A stretch of 64,000 nucleotides of DNA from positions 19,030,848 to 19,094,847 of the forward strand of contig NC_045141.1 in NCBI RefSeq assembly GCF_008831285.2. Reading direction: 5' to 3'. Below are positions 2,414-53,200 of the stretch, piece by piece. Position 1 is the first letter of the stretch, and each line of letters opens with the position of its first letter. The position numbers and the translations under genes were made by a program. This stretch comes from Nymphaea colorata. Its lineage: Eukaryota > Streptophyta > Magnoliopsida > Nymphaeales > Nymphaeaceae. The notes under the pieces are model-generated. The model worked only from the letters and a program-made list of their open reading frames with translations. It was not told the DNA's origin and did not search any database.

Positions 2414-5400
2414 TTAATGATAAATTACATCATGAGTGTTAGCAGCGATCTTGCTGAACAAATCCTCCCCACACAACAGGTCGTAGAGACCTTCCTCCAC
2501 AAGAAGATCGACGTCATTCCCAAATTGCTCCTCCAACTCCACAAAATGTCGCGAAGTCTCTGCACCAGCACCGCTCTGAATTCCGTCCATTCCCGGAAAA
2601 CCAAAAGCCAAGCCGTTGTCAAGGTTACACGTGGGCGCCAACGTTGCATCCTGGCCGTTGAAATTGTACCGTCGGTCGTCTTCCGGTTCAAGCCACTCGG
2701 AGAAGAGCAGCTTAGGCAGGGGGCGGCTCATGAGCGTCGTTCCCTTCACCGGCGGCGAGTCATGACTGACAGTGGGGCAATCGCCGCTTAAAAGGCTTGA
2801 ACTCTGAGCGTCGGTGATAAACCACAACGGCTCCGTTGATTCCAAACTTGCGGCGGGGAATCGGCACGATGGTCTTGAGGACGAGGTGTCTGAGGTCGGG
2901 GACGTGGTCGATTCGGACTCTGCCGAAGACGAGGGGTTGGGCGGAACATCCTCAGAAAGTGGCGGCGTCGAGGTGGTTGGACGGCGAGGATTCAGCCTCG
3001 CCTGCGCCGCTTTCCTCTTGCTCAGGTGGGAGTTCCAGTGGTTCTTTATCTCGTTGTCCGTGCGTCCAGGTAAATGGAAGGCTATCTGGGACCATCTGCC
3101 ACGCTCGGGAAGAAACAACACCTTAGTCAAAATTTCCATGGAAGCTCGACAGGGAGAATCCATGAATTATTAGCACACAGAAAATATGAAGGCATTGGAG
3201 TCTTAGAAAAAGGTAATATTCTTTGAATCATGATATCTTTGTGATATTTTTGAACTGACAATTTCTCGAAAGTATTGTCATCTGTTTCACCAGATGGAAA
3301 GGAACTCTTTTTCTCCTCACTGGGCCTCCTAATTAAAAAAAAGGTGGATTTTGTAAGTGTGATTGAACTTTGATTTCAAAAGTTAATGGAAGATGAGAGA
3401 AGTGTCGGTCTCATTTATTCAAGTCGAATTTCTCTCATCCACTTCTCTTGATGTTTGTTTTAATTGGTGTGAGAACTTTGGACTTCCCATCCAACAGGGA
3501 ATTTCTGCCAGCTTCTGATGAAACAGACGATCAGGCAGTGCTGGTTGGGAACGTGGTGTTTTAGGTAATGAGAAATATATTGGTAGTTCTCATAATATTT
3601 GCCCCAACCTTGCGTTGTAGGTTGAGTAGATAAGGCAACTACATCTTTAAAATCATTCATGTCATCATCATCTTGAATAAGAAGTCCTTGGCAACAGGAC
3701 ACTTTGGTGCGATCTCCCTCTGCTTCAATGAGAAACTAGCTAAGATGATGAGCAAATTTATTGAGACTGAAATCATTCAGTTCTGTCATGAGATCAAGAG
3801 AAAAGATAAATTGAAATTCTCGACCATTCTGTGAATGTTGAAAGGCTGTTTGGGAGATATGCAAAGAAATAAGGAGTGAACGAGGGGAGAGAAGATGGTG
3901 TTCTCGTAAGCACGAAGAGAAGGAAGGAAACAAGAACCCAAGAAATGGAAAGAACAAAAGAAGAAGAGGGGAAAATGAACATACTTATTTCCAAGCACGT
4001 CATGAAGGCCCATAATGATCTCTTCCTCCCGCTCCGTGAACACGTCTCGTTTGAGTCCAGGTCTCAGGTAATTGATCCATCTCAGCCTGCAACTCTTCCC
4101 ATTTCTCTGCAACCCTGCAACGGAAATTCGCGTAACCCTTTTACAGTGAGCTAATAATATGTCATCTTCTGGTATTATTCATTAGCAAACTTTGATGGGC
4201 CAACTTCATGAGCTCTACCGTTCCTGCAGCTTTCTAGTGCATGTTCTTTTCTTCTTGGGGCCACTTCTAAATGAAAATCCTCACATCACTGGCTGTAAAT
4301 TTATAGCAACTTCTTTTCTATTAATGAGTGGCGTTTCGAAGGTGGCAAAGAATTGGAAAAACAATGGAAATGGTTAACAGGTTTTAGCCTTCTCCGGCAC
4401 GAGATATTCCATTAAGTTGTATTTATTTCATCGCAGATTTGAGATCCGCGGTGATTAGGGAATCAGACACCCCCTCCTTTTCGAAAATCCAGCCTTAAAT
4501 CTATGGTTTTTAACATGTAGCTACTGCAAACTGATGATCACCTTTTTATGCAACTTCAGATCTAAGATCCGAAGCTACCTTAATGCTTTAAAAACTTTTG
4601 AGAAAGGAGGGCAGTCAAAACGAAAATACCAGTTTTATTTGTTGAATTCCCTGGCTTTGTCAGTAATTAGGTGATTACTGGTGTGCTTGGCTCCCTTGAT
4701 GCAGGTCCAGAACACTATAGATGCTTAGCTTTTTAAAAATATGGTTTTAGGTGAGGGAGAGGTTATCGCGCCATGTAAACAAAGAGTCAAAACCTTCTCT
4801 CTCATTTCAGTTGCTTGTCGAATCCAAAACTGTCTTGGCATCAGATGGTGGAAGGTTCATATGCTTCAACTTGAATATAGAGACCCACCTCCTTTTGGTA
4901 TAGGAGCATAGTCCCTTATAAATCAAACTAAGGACTCGCTCTATAAAATATCCCTACCCACCTACTTGAGCTATGCTCTACGAGACTAAAACCATAGTTT
5001 ATAAAGCAGTGGTTTGATATGGAAAGGCTGTGTCAGCAGAGGAAGCGCATCGTTCGGAATGCACCCAGCCATATTCGGTTCCTATGAGCATGACACTTTT
5101 CAATATAACATGGAAACTTTATGCACGATCTCAGAACAGAAAACAGTACACTCAAAAATTCATATGAGAGTTCAGGTCAGCGAGTTTACATCACAGGTGG
5201 GCTAGGCCTGGAGGGAGGTGCATTTAGAAGTTTCTTCTTCCATAAGGAAAAATAAAGAAAGGCTGTGGAGGGTTTTTGAAGACAAGCCAGGGGCGCAAAT
5301 TCAACGACCGCCTTTCTTTTCTGGATCTGGACATGCAGGCTTGCTCTCTGCATTTACTTGATCATCAACATGAAGCCTGCCTACCCATGGACATTTCTTT

Positions 5401-6207
5401 GCAGGGGGTCTATAATATCCAGGATTCAAATGGGTTGGACTTGATTTTGTTATTATTGTTATATAAAACATGATTTTGACATGGCTTCTGATGCATTTTA
5501 GTCTTCATCATTAGCCCAAATCATTTAATTTGCATCCTTACTTATGCCGCAGCGCGGCATTCACTCTCTTTTTTCAACTTTGAGTGAGTCTCAGCCGGCC
5601 AAGTCTCACAAGAACAACACTCTTAAAAGATTCCAGCAACAAGGTTGAGACCTGATCAAAGGCTTTCAATTTGACACTCTTCGCATTCATTTCTTGGCAC
5701 CATTGTAGATGTTTCCGGCTCTGACCAACAAGGTGATACAATCTTGAAGAGCATTTACTAACTACCTGTTCAGATGAAAAGTGACAGGGAGAAGCAGCGT
5801 CTGCAGCAAGGTGAGCACTTCTTTTTTCTTTGAAAAGAGAAAGAGATTTAGCTGCTAATATGCTTCTTTTCGATTACGCACTTGTTTGCATCATGGATAA
5901 TACTGAAAAGAGATGAAACCACTAAGGAAAAGATGCACATGGCAAAAAAAGTACGAAATACCCTTCATACAGAGAATCATATCCGATGATATGAAAGAGC
6001 GTGGAGATAAGAAATTGAAGAATGATGAAAAAAAAAAAAAAAAACTTTCATGGCTGATCAATTACCTGCCTTCATCGGGACGGTGCTCCAACATCCATGT
6101 CCATTTTCCAATATGTAATTTTGGAGCTTCTCATCTTCCTCCGGCGACCACAGCCCTCTGCGGCACTTGGGTTTTCGCGCCTGGCTAAGGCATTGCTTGC
6201 AAACCAT
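2414..6207 (-). CDS. R2R3-MYB transcription factor, LAF1/MYB18-like
   Basis: Three exons on the minus strand: 6207-6066, 4114-3985 and 3095-2414, totalling 954 nt (317 aa). The 130-nt middle exon and intron positions match the usual R2R3-MYB layout. R2 carries Trp at residues 20, 40 and 60. R3 has Phe73 in place of the first Trp (normal for the class), then Trp92 and Trp111, with the recognition-helix stretch [18 protein letters not shown] Ser/Thr/Pro-rich linker follows, then [10 protein letters not shown] near residues 217-226 and an acidic C-terminus, a likely activation region. The N-terminus ([20 protein letters not shown]) and the LLFxEWL motif point to the Arabidopsis MYB18 (LAF1)/MYB19/MYB45 clade. 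LAF1 is a nuclear activator in far-red light signalling; that role here is inference. The start is the first ATG after the TATA box at 6327-6334. Intron 2 and part of intron 1 have been copied, inverted, to 24-25.3 kb. Confidence 0.9.
3398..4972 (-). repeat. Source copy of the inverted MYB duplication
   Basis: This stretch (part of MYB intron 2, exon 2, part of intron 1) reappears reverse-complemented at about 23975-25312. Shared anchors are exon 2, the block around 4200-4340, the block around 4580-4700, and the motif near 4895-4935 that reads as rc at 24020-24060. The copies differ by base changes and indels, including a deletion of roughly 170 bases in the derived copy. This copy is taken as the source because it sits inside the complete gene. 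Confidence 0.85.
5335..5465 (+). repeat. Dispersed module shared with 23860-23985 (direct orientation)
   Basis: About 125 bases starting ATGCAGGCTTGCTCTCTGC match 23858-23985 in the same orientation, although the neighbouring MYB sequence is inverted between the two places. A second short block, AGCAAGGTGAGCACTTCTT near 5806-5824, is also repeated in direct orientation near 23828. The module lies in MYB intron 1. It could be encoded as an alternative exon, but there is no evidence for that. Confidence 0.7.
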
Positions 6208-11265: not shown

Positions 11266-23799
<12,534 letters not shown>

Positions 23800-25312
23800 A
23801 ATGGCACCGATCAGTGACAGCTTCTGTAGCAAGGTGAGCACTTCTTCTTTCTTTGAGATGCAGGCTTGCTCTCTGCATTTACTTGATCATCAACCTCAAG
23901 CCTGCCTACCCATGGACATTTCTTTGCAGGGCATCTATTATATCCAGGATTCAAATGGGTTGGACTTAATTTTGTTATTTTATAGGTGGGTTGGAATATT
24001 TTATAGGGCACGTCTTTAGTTTGACCTATAAAGGACTATGCTCCTATACCAAAAAAAAGGTAAATCTCTATATGTAAGTAAGTTGATGCTTATGAACATT
24101 CCACCATTTGATGTCAACACAGTTTTGGATCTTAAAGGCAAGTGAAAGGAGAGAGAAGGTTAAACATCTTTTTAGAGGGCTGCACACCAGTAATCCCCTA
24201 ATTACTGACAAAGCCAGGGAATTAAACAAATAAAACTGGTATTTTCGTTTCCACTGTCCTCCTTTTTCAAAAGTTTTGAAAGCATTAGGGTTGTGTTTGA
24301 CAGCTTCGGATCTTAGGTGAAGTTGCACAAAAAAATGTGTTTTGATAGCATGAATTTAAAATATATGTTACATGTCGGATTTTGGAAAGGAGAGGCGTCT
24401 AATTCTCTGGTCGCCGCGCTTCTCAAATCTGCGATAAAACAAACGCAAGTACCTGGTGCCGATGTGCATAAAAGGGGAAAAGGCTAAAACCTGTAAACCA
24501 TTCCCATTGTTTTTCCAATTCTTTGCCACTTTGGAAAGTAGTAATAAAACTACAGCTAGTGATGTGAGGATTTTCATTTAGAAGTAGCCCTACGAACAAA
24601 AGAAGAACGTGCACTAGTAAGCTGCAGAACGGTGGAGTTCATGAAGTAGGCCCATCAAAGTTTGCTAATGAATAATACCACAAGATGGCATATTATTAGC
24701 TCACTGTAAAAGGGTTACGTGAATTTTCGTTGCAGGGATGCAGAGAAATGGGAAGAGTTGCAGGCTGAGATGGACCAATTACCTGAGACCTGGACTCAAA
24801 CGAGACGTGTTCACAGAGCGGGAGGAAGAGATCATTATGGGCCTTCATGATGTGCTTGGAAATAAGTCTGTTCATTTTCCCCTCTTCTTCTTTTGTTCTT
24901 TCCCTTTCTTGGGTTCTTGTTTCCTTCCTTCTCTTCGTGCTTACGGGAACACCATTATCTTTCTCCCCTCGTTCACTCCTTATTTCTTTGCATATCTCCC
25001 AAACAGCCCTTCAACATTCACAGAATGGTCGAGAATTTCAATTTGTCTTTTCCCCCTTGGCATATGATATATCTCATGACAGAACTGAATCAATTCAGTC
25101 TCAATAAATTTGCTAATCATCCAAGCTAGTTTCTCATTGAAGCAGTGGGAAATCACACTAAAGTGTCCTGTTACCAAGGAGTTCTTGTTCAAGATGATGA
25201 TGACATGAATGATTTTAAAGATGTAGTTGCCTTATCTACTCAACCTAGAACGCAAGGTATTGATGATGACATGAATGGGAGAAATTCGACTTGAATAAAT
25301 GAGACTGACACT
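23800..25312 (+). pseudogene. Inverted MYB gene fragment (exon 2 plus flanking intron)
   Basis: An inverted copy of the MYB locus at 3398-4972. Exon 2 is at 24736-24865, again 130 nt with an open frame ([20 protein letters not shown], then [17 protein letters not shown]), differing from the source by L to M at the first whole codon and I to T after LRW. The donor reads GTCTGT instead of GTATGT. Exons 1 and 3 are absent, so no MYB domain can be made. The left part (23858-23985) is the direct-orientation module shared with 5335-5465. The copy stops abruptly at 25312, where NT-C2 gene sequence begins. Confidence 0.85.
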
Positions 25313-27658
25313 ATCCCATTTCCCGCTAGGACATCCTGGAAAGAGTTAGAGCATGTCCATTAGCCTGTGCATGTCAAAGCATGAGTAGGTCACTAAAGTT
25401 GTGACATGATGACAATAGTTCATTGTGGAATTCATCCCAGGTTACTGAGTTTTAGTATTTGATAAGTCATTCCTTCAGCATATAAGAACTTTTAAGCTTT
25501 CGGCACTTTTGTGTTTCATCATTTGAGCGTTTTAGGCATGTGAACATTCTTTCATCCCTCCACTGACCAAGCATAACTCATCAAGTCTTAGATAAGTTCA
25601 CCTGAACATGGTTGTGCAATTTGGTGTACATCACATCAATGGATACACATGCTGGTCTGTCTTAGATAATATTACCTGAATATGGTTGTGCAATCTGGTA
25701 CATATCACATCAATGGATACACATGCTGACCTCTGGAACAACTTGACATGCTTGAAATATTTTATACATTTGCATATAAATTTGTAGCTCTGTGTATCTC
25801 AGCAAGATTCTTTTTCCTGCTCCTCCTAGTTCATAATTTGAAGAATAAGAACAAAAATAACAGGTTTATTTTAGCTCTCTCCAGAAACAAAGAAATTCAA
25901 TGTGCCCTGTCATCCTTCTTTCTTTTTATTAAATTACGGGTTTCTGTGGTTCATGGGCACTAGGATGCAGAGATTTAGGAAACTTGGGCTCCTATTATAT
26001 TACTGCAGCCGTTCGGACATTATGGGGATGCAAAGATAGACTAAAGTAATAGCTTCTCAAACTTGACTTCAATTAACAAAGGCAAGAAACACGAAGATGA
26101 CCTAAGCCGTAAAAGTAACTGGAATTGAGGAGCTTAATAGTTGCTTGTGTTCTTTATCTTCTCTAATAAGTTAAATCTCGGCAACAAATGCAAGAAAAAG
26201 TTTGAAAAAATTACTATCAAAAGCCATTATTACATAAAAAGCAGTTGGATGAATTTGTATGTCTTCTCTGAAGACACAACCAAGCAGCTTCTGCACTAGT
26301 TTGTAACTTTCTGATTTGCTTAATTTTGTCCTACCGAATGAAGTCACCTTCTACTCAACCAAAGTAGAACTACAAAAATTTGGAAAGTGGGGTAGAAAAA
26401 CTGGAAGAGGAATTTGGGAGATTACTTTGCTCGCACTACTGGCGCTGCATGAAGTTACGGAACTCCCATCCGTGTCAACATCGCTCATTTGATGCCGGAG
26501 GCTCTCAGTGTGAGCGCTTCTTTTGGCTGCACTTCTTTTTTCATCATTCAAAAAAAAAAAAAAATGAAAACAGAAAATGAAGTCAATATTCAGATCTGTA
26601 CTGCCAGATAGAGGACTGAAAACACAAGCATTGATCAAGCTGGAAGGAATTTCCAGTACCTCGTGTTGCCATCAGCATGCAATCTCTGGATCGTGATCTA
26701 CATCCCCATGGCAAAAGGAAAAGATTAGGGCAAGATAAAATCGAATAACTGTTAATGGAAATTTTTTCCTGTACATTTTCAGCAAAATATACAAATTCGT
26801 TTCTTGAAACTGAAAATTTTCTTAAAAATGCGGGAAACATAACCAGAGGATCTTCCTTATCCTCAAGTTCAAAGCACTGGAGTAACTGTTAATTAAAAGT
26901 GTTTCCTCTGCATTTTCGGCAAAGCAAACAAAATTATTTATTGAAAACTTAAACCTTTTGGTAAACATGCACAAAGCATGAACGGAGGATCTTTCTTATC
27001 CTCAAGAGCATTCTGAAAGAAGGGCACTTTGTATTGAGGTTGGATCATGCCAGAGTAGCAGGATTCACTCAATTGAAGTGGCAAAGCAGGAGAACTTCGA
27101 TCAGCTCTTCCAAAGGAGTCGAGGACAAGTACAAGTCCATAGACGGAATGTGGCATTCAATTCCGTCATGAGTTATAGCTTCAGCCAAGCTGATCGATGT
27201 CTCATCGAGAGGATTCGATTTAGTTTCGACCTTTAGGCGTTCCACAAGAACTACTTACATGAAGAATTGTGGAGTTCGAAGCTCCAAGTGAGAGGGAAGC
27301 GGAACAAGGTTCGATGGCATCTGCATACTCGGCAAAATCAACAGCCGTTCGCCCAAGAATTCCATCTTTACTTGACCCCTGGTGAAATGAAGACAACACA
27401 TCACCACCGGCAGCAAAAACACGAAAGCAGAAGATGGTGGCAAGAAAGTCGTTTTACGTTTGATACTATAAATTGATACTTTTTCCCTTCAAATTTCCCT
27501 GTTTCCGGCTCTCGCGATAGTTTTACAGTTTCATAGACGGGATTCCCCCATATACATGCCCCATTGTGAACCTGAACCTTCTCTGTCTTGGCAGAAGGCT
27601 TCCCTGTTTCTGAAGGAACTAGAGCTACCAACAAACTGTCCCATCCTGTTTGAGGTAC
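25313..27658 (-). pseudogene. Truncated copy of the NT-C2 coiled-coil gene (exons 2-5)
   Basis: Minus-strand exons equivalent to the intact gene are at 27658-27458, 27378-27259, 26697-26660 and 26534-26426, with GT-AG signals kept and no stop in frame. Exon 2 differs by one residue (K to E in SREPxTGKF). Only the first 23 bases of exon 6 remain (25335-25313) before the sequence switches to MYB intron. Promoter and exon 1 were lost in the deletion at 27810/27811. It could encode at most part of the NT-C2 domain, without a native start. Confidence 0.92.
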
Positions 27659-29635
27659 CTGCAATTTTCAAGGTACAACAGAATAAAAAGATGGGCAGCA
27701 TTAGCTCATTTGCGTTGCAGAGATTTTGTTCTTTGTCTGACTAGAAACAGCTTGATCAAAGCACTAATGAGTCAACGCAAATCCGAAAATCGGAACCAAA
27801 TTCCAAATCTTTGTCATGGAAAATGACATACTCTCTTACAAGAAGAAACTCAATCAGTTCTTTTTTTTTTTAATTTATGAAGCTGCTGACTCCGCTACTA
27901 ATAAATATAATACTGTGATTTTTTCTGCGTGAGGCAAGTATTCGGCTGCTCACCTCAGCCATGATGCTGCCATGATTAAGTGCTTTCTTTCCTCCATAGA
28001 TAGAGTAAATACTGCAATTGAAAAGGGAAAAGAGAGACAGGCACATCTGAGTAATTGGATTGGAGGCCGGGGCCCAGTTCTCAAGTACCATAAAGAACAG
28101 CACGCCCCCATTGAGAAAGCTGTTCGATCTTATAAAAGGCCATGTTTCTTACCAGAAGTAAGTCTGTCCACGTGATTAGAGAGAGAGAGAGAACACATTA
28201 ACCAAGTTGTGCACATGAGATGCGTGCACAAACACGGAGCTGATCTCTTCGTTCAACGATAACATCAACGTACAAGCAATGTAATTGAGTAAAAATGTTT
28301 GCTTGATTGGTTTATTGTTTGTTTGCTCACTTTCTTTTTCTTTGGTTTGAGACAGGTGACTTTGGTTACTATGCCCTGAACTTTTGTATTTGGCCTCTCT
28401 CTCTCTCTCTTGTGAAGACTTTAATCATAATTAATTGCCAATAAATGAAAGAACGATGCAAGCCATAGGCAAGGAGAAAGTTGGGAAGCAATGTCCTGAA
28501 AAATATTAATTAGTGTAGTTGATGGCGTTCTATCAGGTAGTCTGAATTGAAGAAGTCGGCAAGTAGTCTGAATCGAAAGTGGGAAGCAAATATTCCTAGA
28601 AACTGTAGTTTAGATTGCAAACAAAATGTGCTTTTAATTTTAGAATGAAAGATGTTGGTTTTGATATGTTGAACTTGACAGTGCGCGGACGAGATTGAGC
28701 CGAGCTAAAAAATTTTCATTAAAGAACCGAACTATATAGTGATAGAAGTTAAAATATAATTTTTTATTAAGTTAAATGAAAAAATTAAAATAACGTGTAG
28801 ATTTTTTTTCTTTTTCAATTTGAAGGGCCCACGGCCCTCTGCCCCTGCATTCCATCTAATATAAATTCGTTACCTGTCCTTCCCTTCACTAGAATAGTTT
28901 CTCCAATACTTAAGTACTATGCGAGCAAAATAACCATTCCTTGGGCAATGTCATAGCTATTTCTTTGTTTTTTTTTTAATGTCCCCACAACATTACAAGT
29001 TCATTCTAACATTCCTTTTAACACACCGAGGAGGATCGTATCATAGTTGCTCATGCTGGTGGCTGGTGAAAGCTTAGTCATCAGTTTGATTCTCGTGGAT
29101 GCTATATCTCTAGACTCTACATAACTATAAGTTCACCCAGGTCTTGAAGTAGCCCTGAAATCTGTAAAAACGAAGAGAGACTTGGCCTCTTTGAAGTATC
29201 TCTCCCACTTCTTTTTTAATGATTTCTTTTTTATTTATCTTTAGATAAAATTGTCAATATGTTTTTCCCCAAACAACATGATGTATGTATTACCTGAGCA
29301 GAATGTTACCTGAAAAACATAAAATCGTTTTGCTAACCAACAATAATATGTCGTAATTTGCTGCTAAATAAATATGGTTAAAACATATATAAGCTGATTT
29401 TGGCTGCCTTCATAATTAATAAGCTTTTTCAGTCATGAACTTGGGCTATTAGAAAAGTGACGGTGTAGTTGTAAAGAACAATGGACAGCAACGACACACA
29501 AGCACGAACGGATGCTCCATGTGCGCGACTGTCGGCAGAGCTTTTCACTTGATGAAAATTTTGTAAGAGCACCGACGTTTTTGAAGATATAAAAAAGGAG
29601 ACTTAAACTTTTGCTATTGTTAAAAACGTGCCTAT
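25313..29635 (-). repeat. Left arm of a large inverted duplication (derived copy)
   Basis: This is the reverse complement of 50232-55750. Both arms carry the same anchors in mirrored order, for example 29458-29560 against 50330-50410, and 25748-25963 against 55100-55315. Identity is very high even in introns: a 72-codon stretch at 26938-27156 translates identically to 53907-54125. Relative to the right arm it lacks about 1.17 kb (right-arm 52088-53253) at position 27810/27811 and has about 37 extra bases near 28200. The inner end at 29635 abuts the copia element. Confidence 0.93.
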
Positions 29636-29907
29636 GGCATGTCTACTTGTCATTCTCTATCATGTATCTGCCCAATAGCATCATCTGGCACTGCTGTTGG
29701 GGTATTCTGCAAGGGAATAGGCTCCACATCAACTGGTTGATAGCTGCTATGAGAAGAATCCTTTACTGTTTTCTGAATATCTTCAATATTTTGATCTTCA
29801 GCAAATACCACATCGCTGCTTCTGACAAGCTTCTTCTCAACTAGATCATACAATCTATAACCAAATTCATCATGGCCATAACCCAGAAACACGCACTACC
29901 TGCTTTT

Positions 29908-31092
29908 TTATTTCAACTTCGATCTCTCATCCTTTGGTATATGCACAAATGCCCTACATCCAAATACATGTAAGTGCTCATAAGATACATCCTTCTCATA
30001 CCAAACTCTGTTAGGAACATCACCATCCAAAGAAACATGTGGAGACAAGTTAATCACATAAGCAGCAGTATGTAAAGCTTCACACAAAAAAGAATCAGAT
30101 AACTTAGCTTCAAATAGGAGACATCTAACTCTCTCCATGAGTGTCATGTTCATTCTTTCTGCCACGCCATTCAACCGAGAATTCTTAGGTAAAGTCTTCT
30201 GATGCCTGATGCCATGAGATCTGCAATACTCATCAAATGGACCAATATACTCTCCCCCATTATCGCTGCGAACACACTTCAGCTTTTTTTCTAACTGTCT
30301 TTCAACCAGTGCATGAAAGTTCTTAAATACAATAAGGACTTGGTCTTTCCTCTTCAAAGAATAGACCCAAACTTTCCTGGAAAAATCATCAATAAACGTG
30401 ACAAAATAAAGTGCACCACCATGTGAACTTACTTTCATAGGACCACATACATCTGTATGAACAAACTCAAGTGCATCTGACTTTCTGGAAGGTGGATGAC
30501 TCTTGAAAGAAACCCGCGTCTGCTTCCCTGCAAAACAATGACTGCATTTGTCAAGTTTATCCTTCTTTACATCTTGTAGAAGATTCTTCTTGATCAAGAA
30601 TTGCAATCCCTTGTCACTCATATGTCCCAGTCTCCTGTGCCACAACTCAATAGATTTTTCATCCTGTGTCACATGTACCATGTCTTTGGAAATCGATGCC
30701 TGCATAGTATAAAGATTGTTGCTGCATCTTTTGCCTCGAGCAATAATCAAGGAACCTCTGGTAAGCTTCCATTGGCCATCACCAAAAGTGTTGTGATACC
30801 CTTCTTCATCGAGCCTTCTTGCAGAGATAAGGTTCAAATGCATGTCAGGTGCATGCCTCACGTCTGTCAGCTTCAATAGAGCTTCATTCGCATTCTTCAG
30901 AATGACGTCGCCTCTGCCTACAACATGAGACAAAGAACCATTACCCATTCTCAAAGTGCCAAAATCACCAGAAATATATGCAAAGAAAACATCCTTATGG
31001 GAAGTAACATGAAGAGCTGAACCACTATCAACAAGCCAACAAGTATCATCTCTGGCAACATTAACCATGTCAGCATCACAAACAATGAACAT
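29908..31092 (-). pseudogene. Copia protease-integrase reading frame
   Basis: This is the longest open stretch of the element (394 codons). Protease catalytic Asp lies in VDSGS, with the GAG-pre-integrase domain and then the integrase core. It ends at TAA followed at once by TAG, after which the frame continues (VFLGYGHDEFGYRLYD) to about 29650. Inactive by premature stops and the missing RT/RNase H. Confidence 0.9.
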
Positions 31093-31919
31093 TTTATGTT
31101 GTGTAGTGGCTGCGACGTTGTCATTTCGGTCATTTTTCTTCTCCTGTTTCTCCCCAATTTTATTCTCCTTCTTCAGCTGGAAGCAACACTTCTTTATGTG
31201 CTATTTCTTTCCACAGTGGTGGCATTCCAAATTCTTATATCTCGATTTGGACTTGCTTCTGCTTTTATCTCTGCTCCTGTTCTCTGCGAAAAGAACCTCT
31301 GTCTGAGAAGATTCTATCTGAGAAGAGCAAGCCTGAGATTTTCTTCTCATCTCCTCATTGAGAATACCTGACTTAACAGTCTTTAAAGAAACAACCCCAT
31401 TAACTGCAGAGTTAGTAAATGAGACTCTAAATGTCTCCCACGAAACAGGCAAAGTAGGAAGCAATAATAATCCCAAAATCTCATCTTCAAATTTAACACC
31501 CATACTGGATAACTGACTGATGATCCCCTGAAAATCATTTAAAAAATCTGACACTGAACTGCCCTCCCTGAATCTCAAATTTCATCAATCTTTTCAGAAG
31601 AAATAATTTACTATTTCCTGTCTTGGAGGCATAAAGATTTTCTAATTTTGCCCCACAAACTACATGCATGATTTTCATCTTGGATATGGTTATAAACATT
31701 TTCATCCACAAATTGTCGAATGAAACCACAAACTAGTTCGTGTTCAAATTCTCATTCCTCATCAGACTTAGAAGCAAGCTTTTCTTTGGAAAAAACTGGG
31801 AGGTGCATAGCCTTCACATATAAGAGATCTTTCATCTTATTTTTCCATAGACTATAATTAGTTCCATTTAGGCTAATCATACGGCTAGTACCAAAATCAA
31901 TTTTGTTATCCACCATGTT

Positions 31920-31935
31920 GGCTCTGATACCACTT
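31920..31935 (-). other. Primer-binding site of the copia element
   Basis: The minus strand reads AAGTGGTATCAGAGCC directly after the LTR. TGGTATCAGAGC is the classic site complementary to initiator tRNA-Met. Confidence 0.93.
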
Positions 31936-32567
31936 TGTTGAGATAAAATGTGGATAGGCATAAATCTACTAAAATGATTTAACAACGAAGTATAGCTCAA
32001 ACCGATCATGCAATAAGCAACAAATTAATGACCAAGCAATCACAAAATGCATGAGAAGATTTTTACGTGGAAAACCCCTCAAAACAATGAGGGTAAAAAT
32101 CACGGGGTACTACGACCCAAACTCAATTCACTATAATCAATGATATAAGTTTTCCCACGAGGAGCTACACAAAGCCAACCCTCAAACAATAATATCTCAT
32201 CAAAACTATATTTGAAAAACAAGGAAAATATCACCGATGAAATGCAGAAACCGTGGATTGAGAGGAGATGCGTTTGGCTTCCTCCTTCGAATCGAATCTT
32301 GCTCGAGCTAAGAGCTCGCAACCTTCTCTTCCTTGCCTTCTTCTTCTCCTTCTCTCCTTCATTCTTCTCCTTCTCTTCTCTCCTCTTGGTGTGCAGCCAC
32401 AAGAAAGCACACCCTTTCTTTTTCCCCAAAAAGAAACCCTAGAGAGAGAGAGACGAGAGAAAAGAGAAGAGAGGGGGCACCATCGGGTGCCCACCTTTTA
32501 TCACCTGCCCGTCACTTAAGTGACGGGCCGGGTCGGGTCCTCTCTTGAGGCTGGACCCAACCCAACA
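31936..32567 (-). repeat. Long terminal repeat of the copia element
   Basis: A 632-bp LTR. Read on the minus strand it starts TGTTGGGTTGGGTCC and ends ATCTCAACA, giving TG...CA ends with the short inverted repeat TGTTG/CAACA. The interior contains GGGGTTTTCCACGTAAAA, common in plant copia LTRs, and a CT/GA-rich promoter-like half. The only LTR present. Confidence 0.88.
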
Positions 32568-32783
32568 TTTCGAGTGGATTTCGCATGTATGGCGGACGGG
32601 CATCCGCGCGCAGAAGAGTGAGACAGGAGTTTTTGGGAGAGAAGAGTTGAAAAGGTGCTTGAAGATGGTGATGGAAGGGGAAAGCGGAGAGGAGATGAGG
32701 AAGAATGCAATGGCCTGGAGGGAGGAGGCTAGAGCTGCAGTAGATGAAGGTGGTTCCTCCGATCGTAACATCCAAGACTTCAT
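32568..32783 (+). pseudogene. UDP-glycosyltransferase C-terminal fragment
   Basis: The frame starting at the LTR edge encodes HVWRTGIRAQKSETGVFGRE, then a helix with CLKMVMEGESGEEMRKNAM and WREEARAAVDEGGSSDRNIQ. These are the last helices of plant family-1 glycosyltransferases, which move sugar from UDP-sugars to small molecules. The PSPG donor-binding box and everything upstream are missing, and after NIQDF the family similarity stops. The fragment directly abuts the copia LTR at 32567/32568. Confidence 0.85.
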
Positions 32784-33987
32784 GATCTGGCCAGCATGGT
32801 CACCGCACAGCCAGTCCGCCACTGCCACAGTCGCCACTCCTCCACTGGGCCACCGTCGCCCTTTTGCCGCTCCTAAAACAAATATTCAGATAACATGTAA
32901 GGGTTTTGCCTGCGTTTGTTTGCTTGTCTCTGTCTTTCTCTCTTGCTCTCGCTGTCTCCCTTTCTCTCTTTCTCTTGCTGATGCCTTCCTTTTTTTGTGT
33001 TTCTCTGCTGCTCTCGCTGTCTCCCTTGTTGATGCTTGTCATTTGCTTGATTCTGTTATGTGGAAAATCTGCGTGTTCTGTCTTTATTTTGCTGTTTGGA
33101 TTTCGTGGTGTTCCTTTTCTTCTTGTCTTACATTAAGCTCTTCATAGTTTTATACTTGCTTCTGATATTTCCTAGTGTGTATTATCTAATTTTTGAACTA
33201 CAACCTGCTCCTAGCACAATGCAATTGTGACTTCTTTTCATAGGTTTGCTTTAGTAAAAAATCTAAGTCACTGCAAATATGAAGTGGGTGTGAAGAAAGC
33301 ACGTGGAAGGATTCAGGTTTAGAAAGGGATATATTCATTCTGGGTGCTGCTCTACAATACATGCTCTGTGAATTGTATCTGAATTTGAAGATAATAGCCA
33401 TTTGTGATGTTTTTGAAGAAGCAGCTAGCTAAGTTGCTACTTTGCCATATCTTGAACTTAACAGAGAAAACTATATTGGTCCTTGAAAATCCAGCTGCTT
33501 GTTGAAGTGCATGTCTTTTTTGTCAATCTATTGCATTGGCAGCTAGTAAGAACAGTCACTCTTTTTTGTCATTCTTTGAAGTTTGATGGAGACATTCAAT
33601 AATCCAATTCAAAGTCAAAAATGTCTTCTAGTATTGTAAGTGCATAGTACGTGCTCCACTTTCATCCAATAGTTGTTTCAGATATCACACATATAAAAAA
33701 TGTACCTTTCTACATTAGTTCCCATTGCAGACTTTTTTTTGCCATCAAAATACTGTTATTTGACAACGTAGAAGCAAGAGGGCATATTTACATCTGATAA
33801 AAATGGGGGTTGCTTATGCACAAGTATACTCTTGCCCAGCCAACCTCAACCAATAGATATGCACTCGGCTTTGCTGGTTGTGGTTTGAGAATCAATGTGT
33901 TGGCTAGAAGGCCGCAACAAAAACAATCTCCACTAGCTATTTCTGATTACTCCTGCTTTGTCTTTACAAATCTGTACTTGGCGACAG
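32784..33987. other. Non-coding sequence between UGT and MYB-CC fragments
   Basis: Begins with a GC-rich stretch, then CT-rich sequence at about 32925-33030, then AT-rich sequence. The open frame that continues from the UGT fragment to 33147 has no family similarity after residue 80 or so. No gene is seen. Confidence 0.5.
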
Positions 33988-35214: not shown

Positions 35215-36035
35215 GAGTTGTAAAAAAAGTCTCTCAAATCTTCTACCTTGTGCATCAAACATGATTAATTTTACCCATCAAATAGGGTTAGTTTTACCAC
35301 GTTAAATTCTACCCTGTAATTAAACATAGCCTCAGATTGGAAGAGGGAGAATTTTATCTTCTAAATTTTTTCAGAAAAATTTACCATGGTAAATTTACCA
35401 CATTAAATTCTTCCTAGCCTCAGATTGGAAGAGGAGGAAATTTCATCTTGTAATTTTTTTCAAAAAAATTTACCATGGTAAATTTACCACGTTAAATTCT
35501 TCCTGTGCATCAAACAGGTCCTAAGAAACTGAGTCTTCTTCTACTGATTGAAAGTTTGAGAAGGTGCATGTAAGGTCGTGGAGTCGAGTTGAGCAGATGT
35601 GACAGGAGGAGAAGGAATGAAAGAAGGATAATTTTATTATTTAGGCACAGTCTACAGTTGTTTCTTGTAGTTTTAATCTCGTAAAAATCTCTTAATGTTG
35701 AGAATTTCGATTTTCTGAAATGTTTTCCAGATATTCAGCATGTTTGCTATCTGCAAAATTTTATTATGCAGTCTCAAGATTAATATTTTACCATAGGCTT
35801 TGTTTGATTGTATGAAAGAATTTAACGTGATAAATTTACCATGGTAAACTTTTCTGAAAAAAAAATACAGGGTGAAATTTTACCCTCTTCCGATTTGAGG
35901 CCCTGTTTGATTGCAGGAAAGTTTTTTGCAGGGTAAAATTAACTGTGTTTAATGCACAGGGTAGTTTTTTGCAAGGTAAAGTTAACTATGTTTGGTGCAT
36001 ATGATAAAAAATATGAGAGACTTTTTTCCTGGTCA
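35215..36035. repeat. Nested tandem and inverted repeat element
   Basis: Two tandem units of about 88 bp (35330-35417 and 35418-35505) each start CCTCAGATTGGAAGAGG and contain the palindrome ATTTACCATGGTAAAT. An inverted relative lies at about 35815-35905. The outer flanks pair too: GTCTCTCAAATC-type sequence at 35231 against ATGAGAGACTTTTTT near 36013. The whole looks like a MITE with internal duplication. The core at 35625-35800 recurs at 38555-38730. Confidence 0.65.
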
Positions 36036-37139
36036 TTAGAAATTATTGTATGTCTTTTCTTTATCCGTTTCATGCTTCTCGCTGTCTTGGTAGTTATGGG
36101 GATGGAGTTGGAACTCCAATTGCAGTTCAAACTAATGTACAAACCCAGGTACAGGTTTTTGCAGAATCAATAGAACAAATACAATCGAGGCGCAGAAAAT
36201 AGTTACTTGCAATCAACTCCTAGCAACTAATATTGCAAAAAATCTCAAAGCATAGGGAACTATATGGTCCATCAAATGCAGCTGCCAAGAGGCAATCAGT
36301 GTCAATATGAGATCTTACTGCAATATGTCACAAGTCACAACAATCTAAGGATTGCATAGAGCTGAATTATAATTTCTCAACTTGAACATCAAATGTCTAT
36401 AGATCTTCACATTTTGGAGCTAAAAAACATCGAATAAAGTATGGTGATGAAAACACTCTGTTCTAAATGTTCCTTCTAAATGTTCTTGTGAATAAAGTAG
36501 AGAATCAGGAAAAATTCCAGGCATAACTTACCAAAATGCAGCAGTGGAACATAAAGATACCAAAGAGAAAATCAACAGAAAATTTTTAAAGTAATAAGAA
36601 CTCATTGATCAATACATATAGAACTAAACCCAATTACGAGCGCAATTCCTTTCAAATAAGAAAAGGGTTGAGTTCCTCATTCGGGAGATTCCTGATGAAG
36701 GCAATTGCATTCTTGGACGCATTTCTACACCATCCAGCAAGAACAAAACCGCCCATCTTTTCTCAGGTTCGTCCACGGCCTCATTCAGATGCCGAGTTCT
36801 TCCTCAGCCTCTTTCAACTGATAGCACCATAAAAAAATTGTATAGACTTGTCCTTCTAAAACCCATGAATTGCAATTGCTGCACCGAGGAATCGAAGAGC
36901 TGGAACTCACCGACGAGCTTGAATCGAACACCGACTGTTGCTCGATAATCTGATCGGCTCTCCTCTCCCTCCCGGCCCTACCAACCGCCACCACTTTTTC
37001 CACCCGAGCAAGAGGCACCCATAGAGAGGCAGCGCGAAGGAGGAAGAGGAAGACGAAGGCCTTCGATGGAGAGCAAGAGGCAGCGATAGAGGAGAAGGGG
37101 GCTTCGGCGGAAGGGGAAAGACGAGAGAAAAGAAGGAGA

Positions 37140-37217
37140 AAATTTTTAAGCCGTAACGGCTCAAAAATTTGTCCGTGGAAAAAAGTCGGACCTCAAGAGG
37201 TCAGACTTTTTTCCACG
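37140..37217. repeat. Two adjacent strong hairpins
   Basis: The first palindrome, 37140-37170, is centred on AGCCGTAACGGCT flanked by complementary A/T runs. The second has 21-bp arms 37174-37194 and 37197-37217 with a 2-base loop and a single mismatch, built of GTGGAAAAAAGTC/GACTTTTTTCCAC. Probably the end of a DNA element. Confidence 0.8.
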
Positions 37218-37384
37218 TTAATTTTCCCCCGGTCGTACAAAAAAAGAGCGTTAAATTTTTTGGCATTTGATGGTCTCACCTCACACCGGTTGAACTTTTC
37301 CCTCGTCGTATAGTTTTCACCCGCTCCTCATCTTTTACCTCCACAATCAAATGCAGCCATAAGGTTAACGATAAGGTTGAAAGG

Positions 37385-37682
37385 TTAATGATAAGGTTGA
37401 AAGACAACTGTTTTAGAAAGATTAAAGGAAAGAATCCCGACAAGATCAATCAAAATTAATGATAAATGAAAAAGAAAATCTTTCCTCAAAAATCAGATTC
37501 AGTTTCCCATGTTTATCATTGCCAAGATTATAGTGTTAATGATAAGATTGAAAGACAACCATTCCAGATATATTCAAGCAAAGAATCTCAGCAAGATCAA
37601 TCAAAATTAATGATAAAGGAAAAAAAAAATCTTTTCATAAAAATCAGATTTAGTTTTTCATGTTTATCATTGCCAAGATTAT
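37385..37682. repeat. Tandem duplication, unit about 150 bp
   Basis: Units at 37385-37535 and 37536-37682 share GATCAATCAAAATTAATGAT and CATGTTTATCATTGCCAAGA. The small reading frame across them is a by-product. Confidence 0.9.
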
Positions 37683-38109
37683 AGGAACTTCAACTATTTA
37701 AGCTCGTTATATGCATTGTGTAACCAAGGCTCATGGTGGCATTCCATAATGAAAAATCATGCACGTTTAATGAAGAATCTTTTCATTGCTGGTTTTTATT
37801 TGTTTTGCTTCTTCTTTATTTTTTAACTTGGTATTAGAGCAGAATGCTTGACGAAGAAGAATGAAGCCCATAGGTAGCCTGCAAACGACCAAATACATCG
37901 ATGCCTTCTTTACCAAAACGAAGACTCGACCCTGCGAAGAAAATCTTGAGAAATCAAACTTGGGTTTTCTGAATCGCTGTCAAAGCACGATCTACCTTCA
38001 CAAAAAACTTCATGAAGCAAATTTGAGCTCGTCGAATCTTTGTCAAAGAGATGACATGATCACCTTTTACAATGTTCTGCAGTAAACTTGGACATGCCGA
38101 ATCATTGTC

Positions 38110-38700
38110 AAACATGCTGAATTTTTGGAAAACTTTTCAGAAAACCGAAATTCTTAACATTAAAAGATTTTGAGGAGATTATGATTGCAAAAAACATCTG
38201 TAGACTGAAGCTAAATAATAAAATTATCCTTTTTTCAGCAGCAAACACAACCTTCTGACAATATCATAATGGTTTTAATGGTTGTTCATCTTGCCCCCCT
38301 TTTTACTCCTTTCCTTATTTCTCCCTAGCTTGTTCCTAGTACCAAGGCTGGATTCAAGCCATGGAACACCACCCTTGTGAGATGTGAGCCTAGGGCTGAT
38401 GGCTAAGTACTGAAGATTTGAAAAGAGGCCTTCTATATACTATATATATACCAACCAAGTACAAGTACATGCTCGTGTTTAATCAGCTTTACCTAGAAGA
38501 AGGCAAGATGAGCAGCCATTAAAACCAATATAATATTGTCAGAAGGGTGTGTTTACTGTTGAAAGAAGGATAATTTTATTATTTAACTTTAGTCTACAGT
38601 TGTTTCTTGCAGTCTTAATCGCGTAAAAAAATCTCTTAATGTTGAGAATTTCAGTTTTTAGAAAAATTATCCAGAAATTCAGCATGTTTGCTATCTGCAA
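38110..38700. mobile_element. Foldback-type element
   Basis: The arms 38110-38295 and 38501-38700 are inverted copies: ACATGCTGAA against TTCAGCATGT at the outer ends, TTCTGACAATAT against ATATTGTCAGAA inside, and CATCTTGCC against GGCAAGATG at the inner ends. The spacer is about 205 bp. The right arm is also a direct relative of 35625-35800. No coding capacity. Confidence 0.75.
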
Positions 38701-39492
38701 AATTTTATTATTTAATATTTTACCATAATCTCTCAAGCATGTCTTTTAAAAATCCCTCCAAAAATTAAGTGACGACCTTTTAAAATTACGCAGTAATTTG
38801 ACAAAACCTTAATAGGAGCATGGTGGTCGGTGTGATAAATGACCAAACTGCTCACTATTCTAGAATGGAGGACCCCATAAATAAAATGAGAAAAATGCCC
38901 AGCGCATTGTTTCCCGTGTTGGCCATTCCTAGTAATTTGTTTATGTGCTTGAAAATGAAACGATTTTTTATAATTCTTGCAAGAACTTAAGAAGTAAGAA
39001 ACTTCCTTATAAGTCTTTAAAAGTCTGCCTTCTTCTAGGTAAAACTGATTTTTATATGTTTTCCACTTATCATCCAAACATCCAAATAAGTTTACGAAAC
39101 TACCAAATTTTCAAAATAACGTAACTTTTACAAAAATCAAATTGTTGGAGAGTGTCGTCCAATTCGACCAACGGATCTGGATTCAATCCAGCCCCGATGT
39201 AGGATCTGAGGAACAAGTCTTTCATTCGGTTTGATGAACGGGAGAGGGCCGCACGGCAGCGCTCTGAAGGGCCAGCGCTCAGAGGAACAAGACGTACGAA
39301 ACGGGACAGCCCATGGTAAGACGGCCACCACCCATGGTTTCGATCCCTCTCCTTCTCTCTCTACATCTCTCTAGAGAGAGAGAGAGTGAGAGTCCAAACC
39401 CATGGCTAATAAATTCAACCAAACGAAACGCCCACTGGTTTTCATTCTTCCAAAGAGTTTCCACCTCCACCACCGCTGCAGTCATTCTCAAC

Positions 39493-50231: not shown

Positions 50232-53200
50232 ATAGGCACGTTTTTAACAATAGCAAAAGTTTAAGTGGCCTTTTTGTTATCTTCAAAAACTTAAGTGCTC
50301 TTACATAATTATCGTCAAGTGAAAAGCACTGCCGACAGTCGCGCACATGGAGCATCCGTTCGTGCTTGTGTGCCGTTGCTGTCCAATGTTCTTTACAACT
50401 ACACCGTAACTTTTCTAATAGCCCAAGTTCATGACTGAAAAAGCTTATAATTTATTAGGGCAGCCAAAATCAGCTTATATTATGTTTTAACCATATTTAT
50501 TTAGCAGCAAATTACGACATATTATTGTTGGTTAGCAAAACGATTTTATGTTTTTTCAGGTAACATTCTGCTCAGGTAATACATACATCATGTTGTTTGG
50601 GGAAAAACATATTGACAATTTTATCTAAAAAAAATAAAAAAGAAATCATTAAAAAAGATGTGGGAGAGATACTTCAAAGAGGCCCAAGTCTCTCTTCGTT
50701 TTTACGGATTTCAGAGCTACTTCAAGACTTAGGTGAACTTATAGTTATGTAGAGTCTAAGCATGTAGCATCTACGAGAATCAAATTCACCAGCCACCAAC
50801 TTGAGCAACTACGTTACTATCCTCCTCGGTGTGTTAAAATGAATGAACTTGTAATGTTGTGGGGACATTAAAAAAACAAACAAACAAAGAAATAGATATG
50901 GCATTGCCCAAGGAATGGTTATTTTCCTCCCATAGTACTAAGTATTGGAGAAACTTTTCTAGTGAAGGGAAGGACATGTGGATAATTTATATTAGATGGA
51001 ATAGCACGTAAAAAAAATGCAGGGACAGAGACAAAGCGGGCTGGCAGGGGTATGGGCCCACTTCAAATTTAAAAAGAAAAAAATCTACATGTAATTTTAA
51101 TTTTTTTCATTTAACTTATGTAAAAAATTAAAAAATTATATTTTAACTTCCGTCACATAGTTCGGTTCTTTAATAAAAAAGTTGTAGCTAGGCTCAATTT
51201 CGTCAGTGCACTGTCAAGTTCAACATATCAAAACCAACATCTTTCACTCTAAAAGGAACTTTTTAGCCTGGCTTGTTTTCCTGTTCTCTGCAATTAACAC
51301 CCTTTAAAAACACATTTCGTTTGCAATCTAAACTAAAGTTTCTAGGAACATTTGTTTCTCACTTTCGATTCAGACTACCTGCCGACTCCTTCGATTCGGA
51401 CTACCTGATAGAACGCCATCAACCACACTAATTGACATTTTTCAGAGCATTGCTCCCCAACTTTCTCCTTGCCTACCGCTTGCATGGTTCTTCCATTTAT
51501 TGGCAATTAATTATGATTGAAGTTCTCTCTTGAGAGAGAGAGACGCCAAATACAAAAGTTCAGGGCACAGTAACCAAAGTCACCCGTCTCAAACCAAAGA
51601 AAAAGAAAGCGAGCAAACAAACAATAAACCAATCAAACAAAGATTTTTACTCAATTACATTGCTTGTACGTTGATGTTATCGTCGAACGAAGAGATCAGC
51701 TCCTTGTTCTCTCTCTCTAATCACGTGGACAAACTTACTTCTGGTAAGAAACATGGCCTTTTATAAGATCGAACAGCTTTCTACATGGGGGCCTGCTTTT
51801 CTTTATGGTACTTGAGAGCTGGGCCCCGGTCTCAAATCCAATTACTCAGATGTGCCTGTCTCTCTTTTCCCTTTTCAATTGCAGTATTTACTCTATCTAT
51901 GGAGGAAAGAAAGCACTTAATCATGGCAGCATCATGGCTGAGGTGAGCAGCGCAATACTTACCTCACGCAGAAAAAATCACAGTATTATATTTATTACTA
52001 GCGCAGTCAGCAGCTTCATAAATTTAAAAAAAAAAAAGGACTGACCGAGTTTTTTCTTGTAAGAGAATATGTCATTTTCCATGACAATGGGGCCTTCTTG
52101 GGGCATCGGAGAACAGTGTAACGATGATAAGGGTGCGGTCAAAAACTACCCCTCTGATAGGTGAGATATGCATCTGATATTCCTACCTCTATAATTTTCT
52201 GCGAAAGTCAAAACGTGTACCGACTTCCACAAAATAATCAATTGCAGGAAGGAAAAGAAAATTGGTATCTGGTCTTAAAATGTATCTTATATTTTTTCGA
52301 AATTGCTTGACAGATTGCATCACATGTCACATGACAGACTGCATGTTGGTGTTCGCTGCTCAACGTTCTACCTACTTAATGCTAGTAAACATTATTGTCT
52401 TTTAGCATCTCCTTTTATTTCTTTAAAAATTTTGAACTCTTTGTTACTTGGTGAATCCAGAGGGCCACTTGGATACTGTTCTTTTCTTGGCTTTGTATTT
52501 TTCGTCTCTGTTATTCGTTCTAGATTTCACAAAAGCGATGGTAGTCCTGCTTTGTTTCTGATCCCAACTTGTGAAAAAAAAAAAGATTTGTTTCTTATCA
52601 TACATATTCCTTTTATTCTGTTATTTCCTAAAATCTGCAGTTGTTCACAGCCCGGGATCATTTATTTTGCTCTGCGGAAACAGTCTGTCTCTGATTTCTG
52701 CAAGGAGGAAATACGCCAAGCAGCACGCACATCCCCTGCTCTCTTTTATTTCTTCCCATTTTGTTTTCAAATTTTCATCTTGGCCTTACTAAAGAGGCTC
52801 AGCAGCTGTCCTTCTCAGCATCGTTTTCCGGCAAGTCTGTGCTGGGAGGGAACTCGCCAGTAGCGCTCGGGTTCGGAGGCGATGTCCTTTTCTTTTCTAT
52901 GACAAAGAGATCTGGTCTTTGTTGGCACCGTGAAGAGAATTTGAAAATTCTCTTCTGGGGAGTTGGATTCTGGTGGGTTCTTCTTGTGACCGGGACAAGA
53001 TGGCAGTCGTAGTGGGATGGAGGAATTTGCGGGTCGCGTTCGGAGGCTATATCGGCAGACAAGGTCGTGACTGCGATCCTCTGCGCTCGATTTTCCGGCG
53101 AGATTGCTGACTGAGCCTGAAGGGCAGCTTCGAGTGAGGGAAGATGTTCAAGGGAGCTAAGTGGAGGAGTGAGAAGAACAAGATCAAGGCCGTTTTCAAA

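Follow-up and report, generated by a model that had tools for sequence, protein, structure and literature searches.

A 5.8-kb patchwork of MYB-locus and NT-C2 gene fragments in Nymphaea colorata, with an old chimeric junction probably left by templated repair and a middle probably altered by later gene conversion

Inverted copies of parts of two loci that lie about 52 kb apart, a MYB locus and an NT-C2 gene, are joined at positions 25310–25312 of the 64-kb stretch of Nymphaea colorata DNA analyzed here (the window, to which all comparisons were confined). This junction is one seam of a 5.8-kb patchwork (23818–29635) made up of pieces from both loci, in two orientations and in permuted order. 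We regard it as probable that the patchwork was made by an old episode of template-switching repair, and that its middle was subsequently overwritten by ectopic gene conversion, unless paralogs were mixed in the assembly.

The junction itself is sharply defined. On the MYB side, 25272–25312 corresponds to the reverse complement of 3441–3401 (38/41 identical; E 2e-9 in a self-comparison of the whole window), and on the NT-C2 side, 25310–27810 corresponds to the reverse complement of 55753–53253, with 2461 of 2501 bases identical and no gaps by self-comparison and alignment. When the joint is laid out base by base, the bases ACT (25310–25312) are the sole overlap and are compatible with both sources, and no inserted sequence stands at the junction. 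To the left of ACT, 16 of the next 59 bases of the NT-C2 source are identical, as are 16 of the 59 bases of the MYB source to its right, which is background in both cases; separate searches of the flanks for homology of either source across the junction returned weak matches (E at least 0.08). The first-pass annotation had described two loci about 50 kb apart, both copied in inverted orientation and fused by a short overlap, with ACT fitting either source, and this description holds in each of these respects: neither source continues past ACT, there is no extended homology of both sources, and no bases that might represent a transposon scar lie between the two parts.

The same annotation took the short overlap as a signature of FoSTeS/MMBIR. 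Here, caution is needed, since random joins of window sequence share at least three bases at a frequency of 0.062 (200,000 trials); the ACT overlap is therefore weak evidence for template switching, and the microhomology by itself is not clearly above chance. What stands of the claim is the non-homologous fusion of two sources, the presence of three seams within 25258–25312 (as close template switches of the FoSTeS/MMBIR kind would leave), and the similar divergence of the stretches near the joint. Better evidence for templated repair than the overlap is provided by a 17-bp filler and by the 5.8-kb patchwork.

Read along the plus strand, the patchwork consists of 5795–5833 and 5330–5454 in direct orientation, 4964–4791 and 4686–3607 inverted, the filler, 3441–3401 inverted, 55753–53253 inverted, and 52087–50232 inverted. 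In this layout there are seven seams, four with shared bases (2, 3, 3, and 0) and three with unassigned ones (2, approximately 3, and approximately 20). The overlaps are short, with 3 bp at the junction and again where the filler is left, 2 bp at 23855–23856, and 0 at 27810/27811, and they suit end joining as well as replication.

The pieces derived from the MYB locus come from a source region at 3401–5833, of which 3401–4964 was copied inverted and 5330–5454 and 5795–5833 directly. From left to right, they are a plus-strand patch at 23818–23856 (36/39 identical to 5795–5833), a second plus-strand patch at 23855–23979 (118/125 identical to 5330–5454), a minus-strand patch at 23983–24161 (matching 4964–4791 in 145 of 179 columns, 5 of them gaps), the main minus-strand patch at 24182–25258 (from 4686–3607; 84.4% identity over 1115 columns, including 73 gap columns), and the short minus-strand patch at 25272–25312, the first 6 bases of which overlap the filler. 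The main patch contains a MYB coding stretch (24738–24866) that agrees with its source in 41 of 43 residues. It is the exon at 2414–3163 that gives the locus its MYB label: this exon scores above the Pfam cut-off for Myb_DNA-binding, was not among the copied sequence, and is absent from the patchwork; the copied coding stretch and its source matched MYB models below the Pfam cut-offs only.

The filler (25259–25277, plus strand) replaces approximately 165 bp of the source (3606–3442) and sits 32 bp left of the junction. It consists of 2 untemplated bases followed by 17 bases (25261–25277) that are identical at all 17 positions to 25195–25211, located 66 bp further left, and to the source at 3670–3654; a crude estimate puts the chance of such a match at approximately 1e-6. 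The exit from the filler passes through an ATG common to the template and the next patch. The combination of a deletion (approximately 165 source bases lost) with an insertion templated by the flank is what one would look for in theta-mediated end joining, though the filler could also reflect a later local deletion, given that its 17 bp are also found in the copy itself. The sequence left of the junction is thus a copy of the MYB locus, as first annotated, but not a continuous one.

On the other side, the source region extends from 50232 to 55753 (plus strand) and comprises an upstream part and the first exons of the NT-C2 gene. The gene owes its name to Pfam family PF10358, which is matched by a 72-residue exon stretch (E 2e-11), and its model was drawn by eye from reading frames and splice signals rather than transcripts, with exon 4 not placed. 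The NT-C2 patch (25310–27810, minus strand; 40 mismatches) spans from intron 1 to the 26th base of the exon starting at 55728. It is followed by an upstream patch (27811–29635, minus strand) taken from 52087–50232, with 116 mismatches in 1752 aligned bases and 19 indels. Between the two, the copy lacks 1165 bp of the source (52088–53252), which comprise exon 1, reading MFKGAKWRSEKNKIKAVFKVQVQATQ at 53144–53221, together with the sequence preceding it. A processed retrocopy is ruled out by the NT-C2 introns in the gapless copy. The gene also holds a 137-bp tandem repeat of approximately two copies at 54057–54317, with a matching repeat in the copy at 26743–27006. The patchwork is most likely a pseudogene, since the NT-C2 patch lacks its first exon and the MYB patch lacks an exon; no function is implied.

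Close to the joint, the two sides have diverged from their sources to a similar degree. There are 49 substitutions in 701 bases (7.0%) in the proximal MYB patch (24540–25258), 21 mismatches in 358 (5.9%; noncoding 19/332) in the NT-C2 patch next to the junction (25310–25667), and 116 in 1752 (6.6%) in the upstream patch (27811–29635). These near stretches do not differ (p = 0.75) in a test that omits 24182–24539, the cut at 24540 having been set by hand. This omitted, distal stretch carries 70 substitutions in 342 bases, and with the whole MYB patch (117–119 substitutions in 1043 bases, entered as 119) the test of equal divergence gives p = 1e-5. Divergence of the kind that a single event would leave is thus seen in the three near stretches, and is no longer seen when the diverged MYB stretch is added.

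In 60-base steps, the MYB excess sits in 24302–24481 (56/174, 32%), and the rest of the patch stands at 61/869 (7.0%). The patch at 23983–24161 is approximately 17% diverged from its source versus 6–7% in its neighbors. Because these two stretches far exceed the rest, the patchwork is not all of one age by the divergence measure. Its seams need not be of one age either. Mutagenic synthesis near the joint is not needed to account for the 21 clustered mismatches at 25310–25667, as the near MYB and upstream stretches are at the same level. These mismatches lean toward G/C in the copy, 14 to 3, versus 61 to 60 in the flanks (p 0.018), which may reflect chance or biased conversion.

The remainder of the NT-C2 patch behaves differently. 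Its near-identical middle (25668–27391, limits set by hand at mismatches) has 10 mismatches in 1724 bases, and a two-segment model with a break at 25626/25627 is the best by BIC (400, versus 418 for one segment, 409 for three, and higher values for further ones). None of 100,000 shuffles reached the longest identical run of 768 bp, which is the kind of identity tract, longer than chance in a diverged duplicate, by which ectopic gene conversion is recognized. Selection on exons does not explain it: when noncoding bases alone are considered, a run of 648 bp was reached in 6 of 100,000 shuffles, with exon 4 bases counted as noncoding, which slightly weakens the test. The most extreme part, 26309–27391, has 1 mismatch in 1083 (noncoding 1/862, versus 6.6% beyond 27811), and the right end, 27392–27810, is intermediate (9/419; noncoding 6/218, p 0.02 versus the 27811–29635 patch).

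The lack of indels counts against the account favored below. With 24 indels to 165 substitutions in the flanks, approximately 5.8 indels would be expected in the 2501-bp block and none are present (Poisson 0.003), and the old-looking 358 bp next to the junction are likewise free of them (Poisson 0.047). In its favor, an A15 tract is equal in length in both copies of the middle, and the three T tracts examined in the 27811–29635 patch all differ from the source.

The simplest account is an old joint with later homogenization of the middle by gene conversion between the inverted copies, and one should keep in mind that mixing of paralog reads would look alike. Gapless near-identity inside an old, indel-rich duplicate is what would be seen if the middle were an assembly artifact, with the reads of the inverted paralogs mixed and the true copy approximately 6% diverged throughout; the junction would stay real. 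We consider this unlikely, although it is the strongest of the alternatives: the 10 differences left in the middle are scattered, and gene conversion between nearby copies is a known process that would produce the same tract.

Under the account that we favor, a break between the two genes would have been repaired by error-prone, DNA-templated synthesis, giving rise to the patchwork. Synthesis would have proceeded in hops with the MYB locus as its template; after a backward slip of 63 bp, which gave the 17 bp of the filler, it would have jumped ahead for another 32 to 41 bp and then switched to the NT-C2 locus approximately 52 kb away, where copying would have gone on through the introns before skipping the 1165 bp that hold the start of the gene. 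Later, ectopic gene conversion between the NT-C2 patch and its source, which are inverted copies 25 kb apart, may have covered approximately 25668–27391, perhaps up to 27810; the 1165-bp gap would set the limit of the tract on the right, and the exchange would have made the right side of the junction look young. The pieces, their order, the filler, and the similar divergence of the near stretches are observed; that a break was repaired with template switching, in one episode, is what we infer. Three features, namely the filler, the retained introns, and the occurrence of short patches in both orientations, favor DNA synthesis that changed templates while a break was being repaired.

The order of the pieces deserves special attention. 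Had the whole region been copied inverted and then trimmed by deletions, NT-C2 would precede MYB on the plus strand if the present gene order is ancestral; the copy has MYB first, and we reject this scenario. The order seen requires that synthesis jumped from 3401 to 55753 or, failing that, that a circle or head-to-tail duplicate once existed. In the latter case, a tandem duplication or extrachromosomal circle of 3401–55753 would have created the joint 55753|3401, after which the piece spanning it was inverted or reinserted between the two genes and the rest lost. A plus-strand copy running from 4686 to 3401 and then from 55753 to 50232 is indeed the reverse complement of such a joint, and it agrees with the comparable divergence seen close to the joint on either side. 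Nevertheless, two pieces of the same orientation would be expected to give this order with even chance, nearly all of a 52-kb copy would have to be lost in addition to the inversion, and the direct-oriented patches at 23818–23979 are unfit for a single simple piece, all of which leaves a head-to-tail origin rather improbable. A more specific version takes 3401|55753 to be the point at which a 52-kb extrachromosomal circle (or rolling-circle copy) of this region closed, with the spanning fragment pasted back inverted into the midst of its own source and kept young by conversion from the intact gene. This version has only a slim chance of being right; if true, it would represent a gene shuffle through a circular intermediate in a plant genome.

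Raw identities, calculated with gaps, differ between the MYB side (84.4%) and the NT-C2 side (98.4%), and it is tempting to read these values as two independent insertions, that is, an old MYB fragment beside which a recent 2.5-kb NT-C2 fragment was later placed. The lack of gaps in the 2501 bp is in keeping with a recent insertion. When mismatches are split by position, however, 21 of the 40 fall in the 358 bp next to the joint, at a level like that of the near MYB side, which speaks against two events with the reservation that the MYB stretch 24182–24539 is excluded from that comparison. In addition, the match continues in order into 27811–29635 at 6.6%, and a recent insertion exactly between such flanks would be unlikely. 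We therefore give this explanation little credence, less than a head-to-tail origin.

The edges of the patchwork were inspected for signs of mobile elements. Intron-bearing chimeric gene fragments are typical cargo of transposons, but capture of the two fragments by a Pack-MULE, Helitron, or similar element is the least credible explanation of all, as 4 exact 12-mers recur in inverted orientation between the flanks (ten control placements gave 0 to 14), with none of the 4 at 23818 or 29635, CTRRT ends followed up for a perfect GC-rich hairpin (6–9 bp stem) are lacking in 21500–24200 and 29300–33500, and a self-comparison of 20000–33000 contains no inverted repeat flanking the patchwork. Terminal inverted repeats were thus not found at the edges by exact 12-mers and BLAST self-comparison, nor was a Helitron 3′ end (hairpin and CTRR) in either of the stretches scanned near the edges.

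Pieces of a Copia-type retrotransposon lie to the right of the patchwork on the minus strand (29653–31898), and were recognized by Pfam searches of the separate pieces as gag, Pol_BBD, GAG-pre-integrase, integrase, and SH3-like. The last piece is 18 bp from the patchwork edge at 29635, and the element may have been the site of the break. Gag and integrase pieces are recognized in it, and no reverse transcriptase piece was seen. Reading the 27811–29635 patch as retrotransposon sequence is not supported, given that it matches the stretch upstream of NT-C2 and the recognized Copia pieces, to which the Pfam search applied, start at 29653. For the missing Copia half to the left, 9 of the 25 frames at 18000–23817 were searched (2 of them reaching into the patchwork), with one NUDIX_2 match and nothing in the other 8. 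The former is a weak match (E 5e-6, 26.5 bits versus a cut-off of 27) in a minus-strand frame at 19988–20392, which is perhaps an exon of a NUDIX_2-type gene. Further to the right, 35223–38727 holds a cluster of direct and inverted repeats with 71–87% mutual identity.

Gene movement in plants by DSB repair with foreign filler DNA (SDSA) was reportedly proposed by Wicker, Buchmann and Keller in 2010. Judged by a barley and a wheat paper that cite this proposal, the patchwork is similar in its intron-bearing fragments at a non-allelic site, its retained sources, the absence of transposon ends among those searched for, the filler at a seam, and the partial retrotransposon at one edge, and it differs in combining two nearby source loci, through several hops, within a single patchwork. 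The features that it shares with FoSTeS/MMBIR are the non-homologous joints, the short overlaps, the three seams in approximately 55 bp, and copies gained in both orientations; unlike in FoSTeS/MMBIR, the overlap here does not clearly exceed chance. The near-identical tract in an older duplicate, with edges more diverged, resembles the outcome of ectopic (interlocus) gene conversion between paralogs. The kilobase-long copied patches exceed the usual filler sizes of theta-mediated end joining.

In other respects, the patchwork shares features with theta-mediated end joining: templated insertions are a hallmark of this pathway in Arabidopsis (PMC10923293), and the patchwork has a 17-bp filler from the near flank of an approximately 165-bp deletion, together with 3-bp overlaps. 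Filler is also described in cereals, where a paper on barley CNV reports that 13% of the deletions in a cultivar comparison contained filler, pointing to SDSA (PMC3706897), and one on wheat states that gene fragments serve as filler DNA in DSB repair (PMC3445842). FoSTeS/MMBIR is a possible mechanism, which in so old a joint is inseparable from theta-mediated or SDSA-type repair, as all three would be able to leave such scars.

Nucleotide substitutions accumulate in plants at approximately 5e-9 to 1.5e-8 per site and year. At these rates, the approximately 6–7% substitutions near the junction would make it old, very roughly 2 to 7 million years.

Taken as a whole, the patchwork is most likely a good but ordinary example of gene shuffling by repair, later homogenized, and it involves known processes and no new one. 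It is of interest as a case, taken apart piece by piece, of how chimeric gene fragments can arise in plant genomes, and it carries a caution: gene conversion at a later date, or mixing of paralogs during assembly, can give the halves of a single joint the appearance of different ages. For this reason, the ages of chimeric joints are best read from the bases adjoining the joint, with indels set aside.
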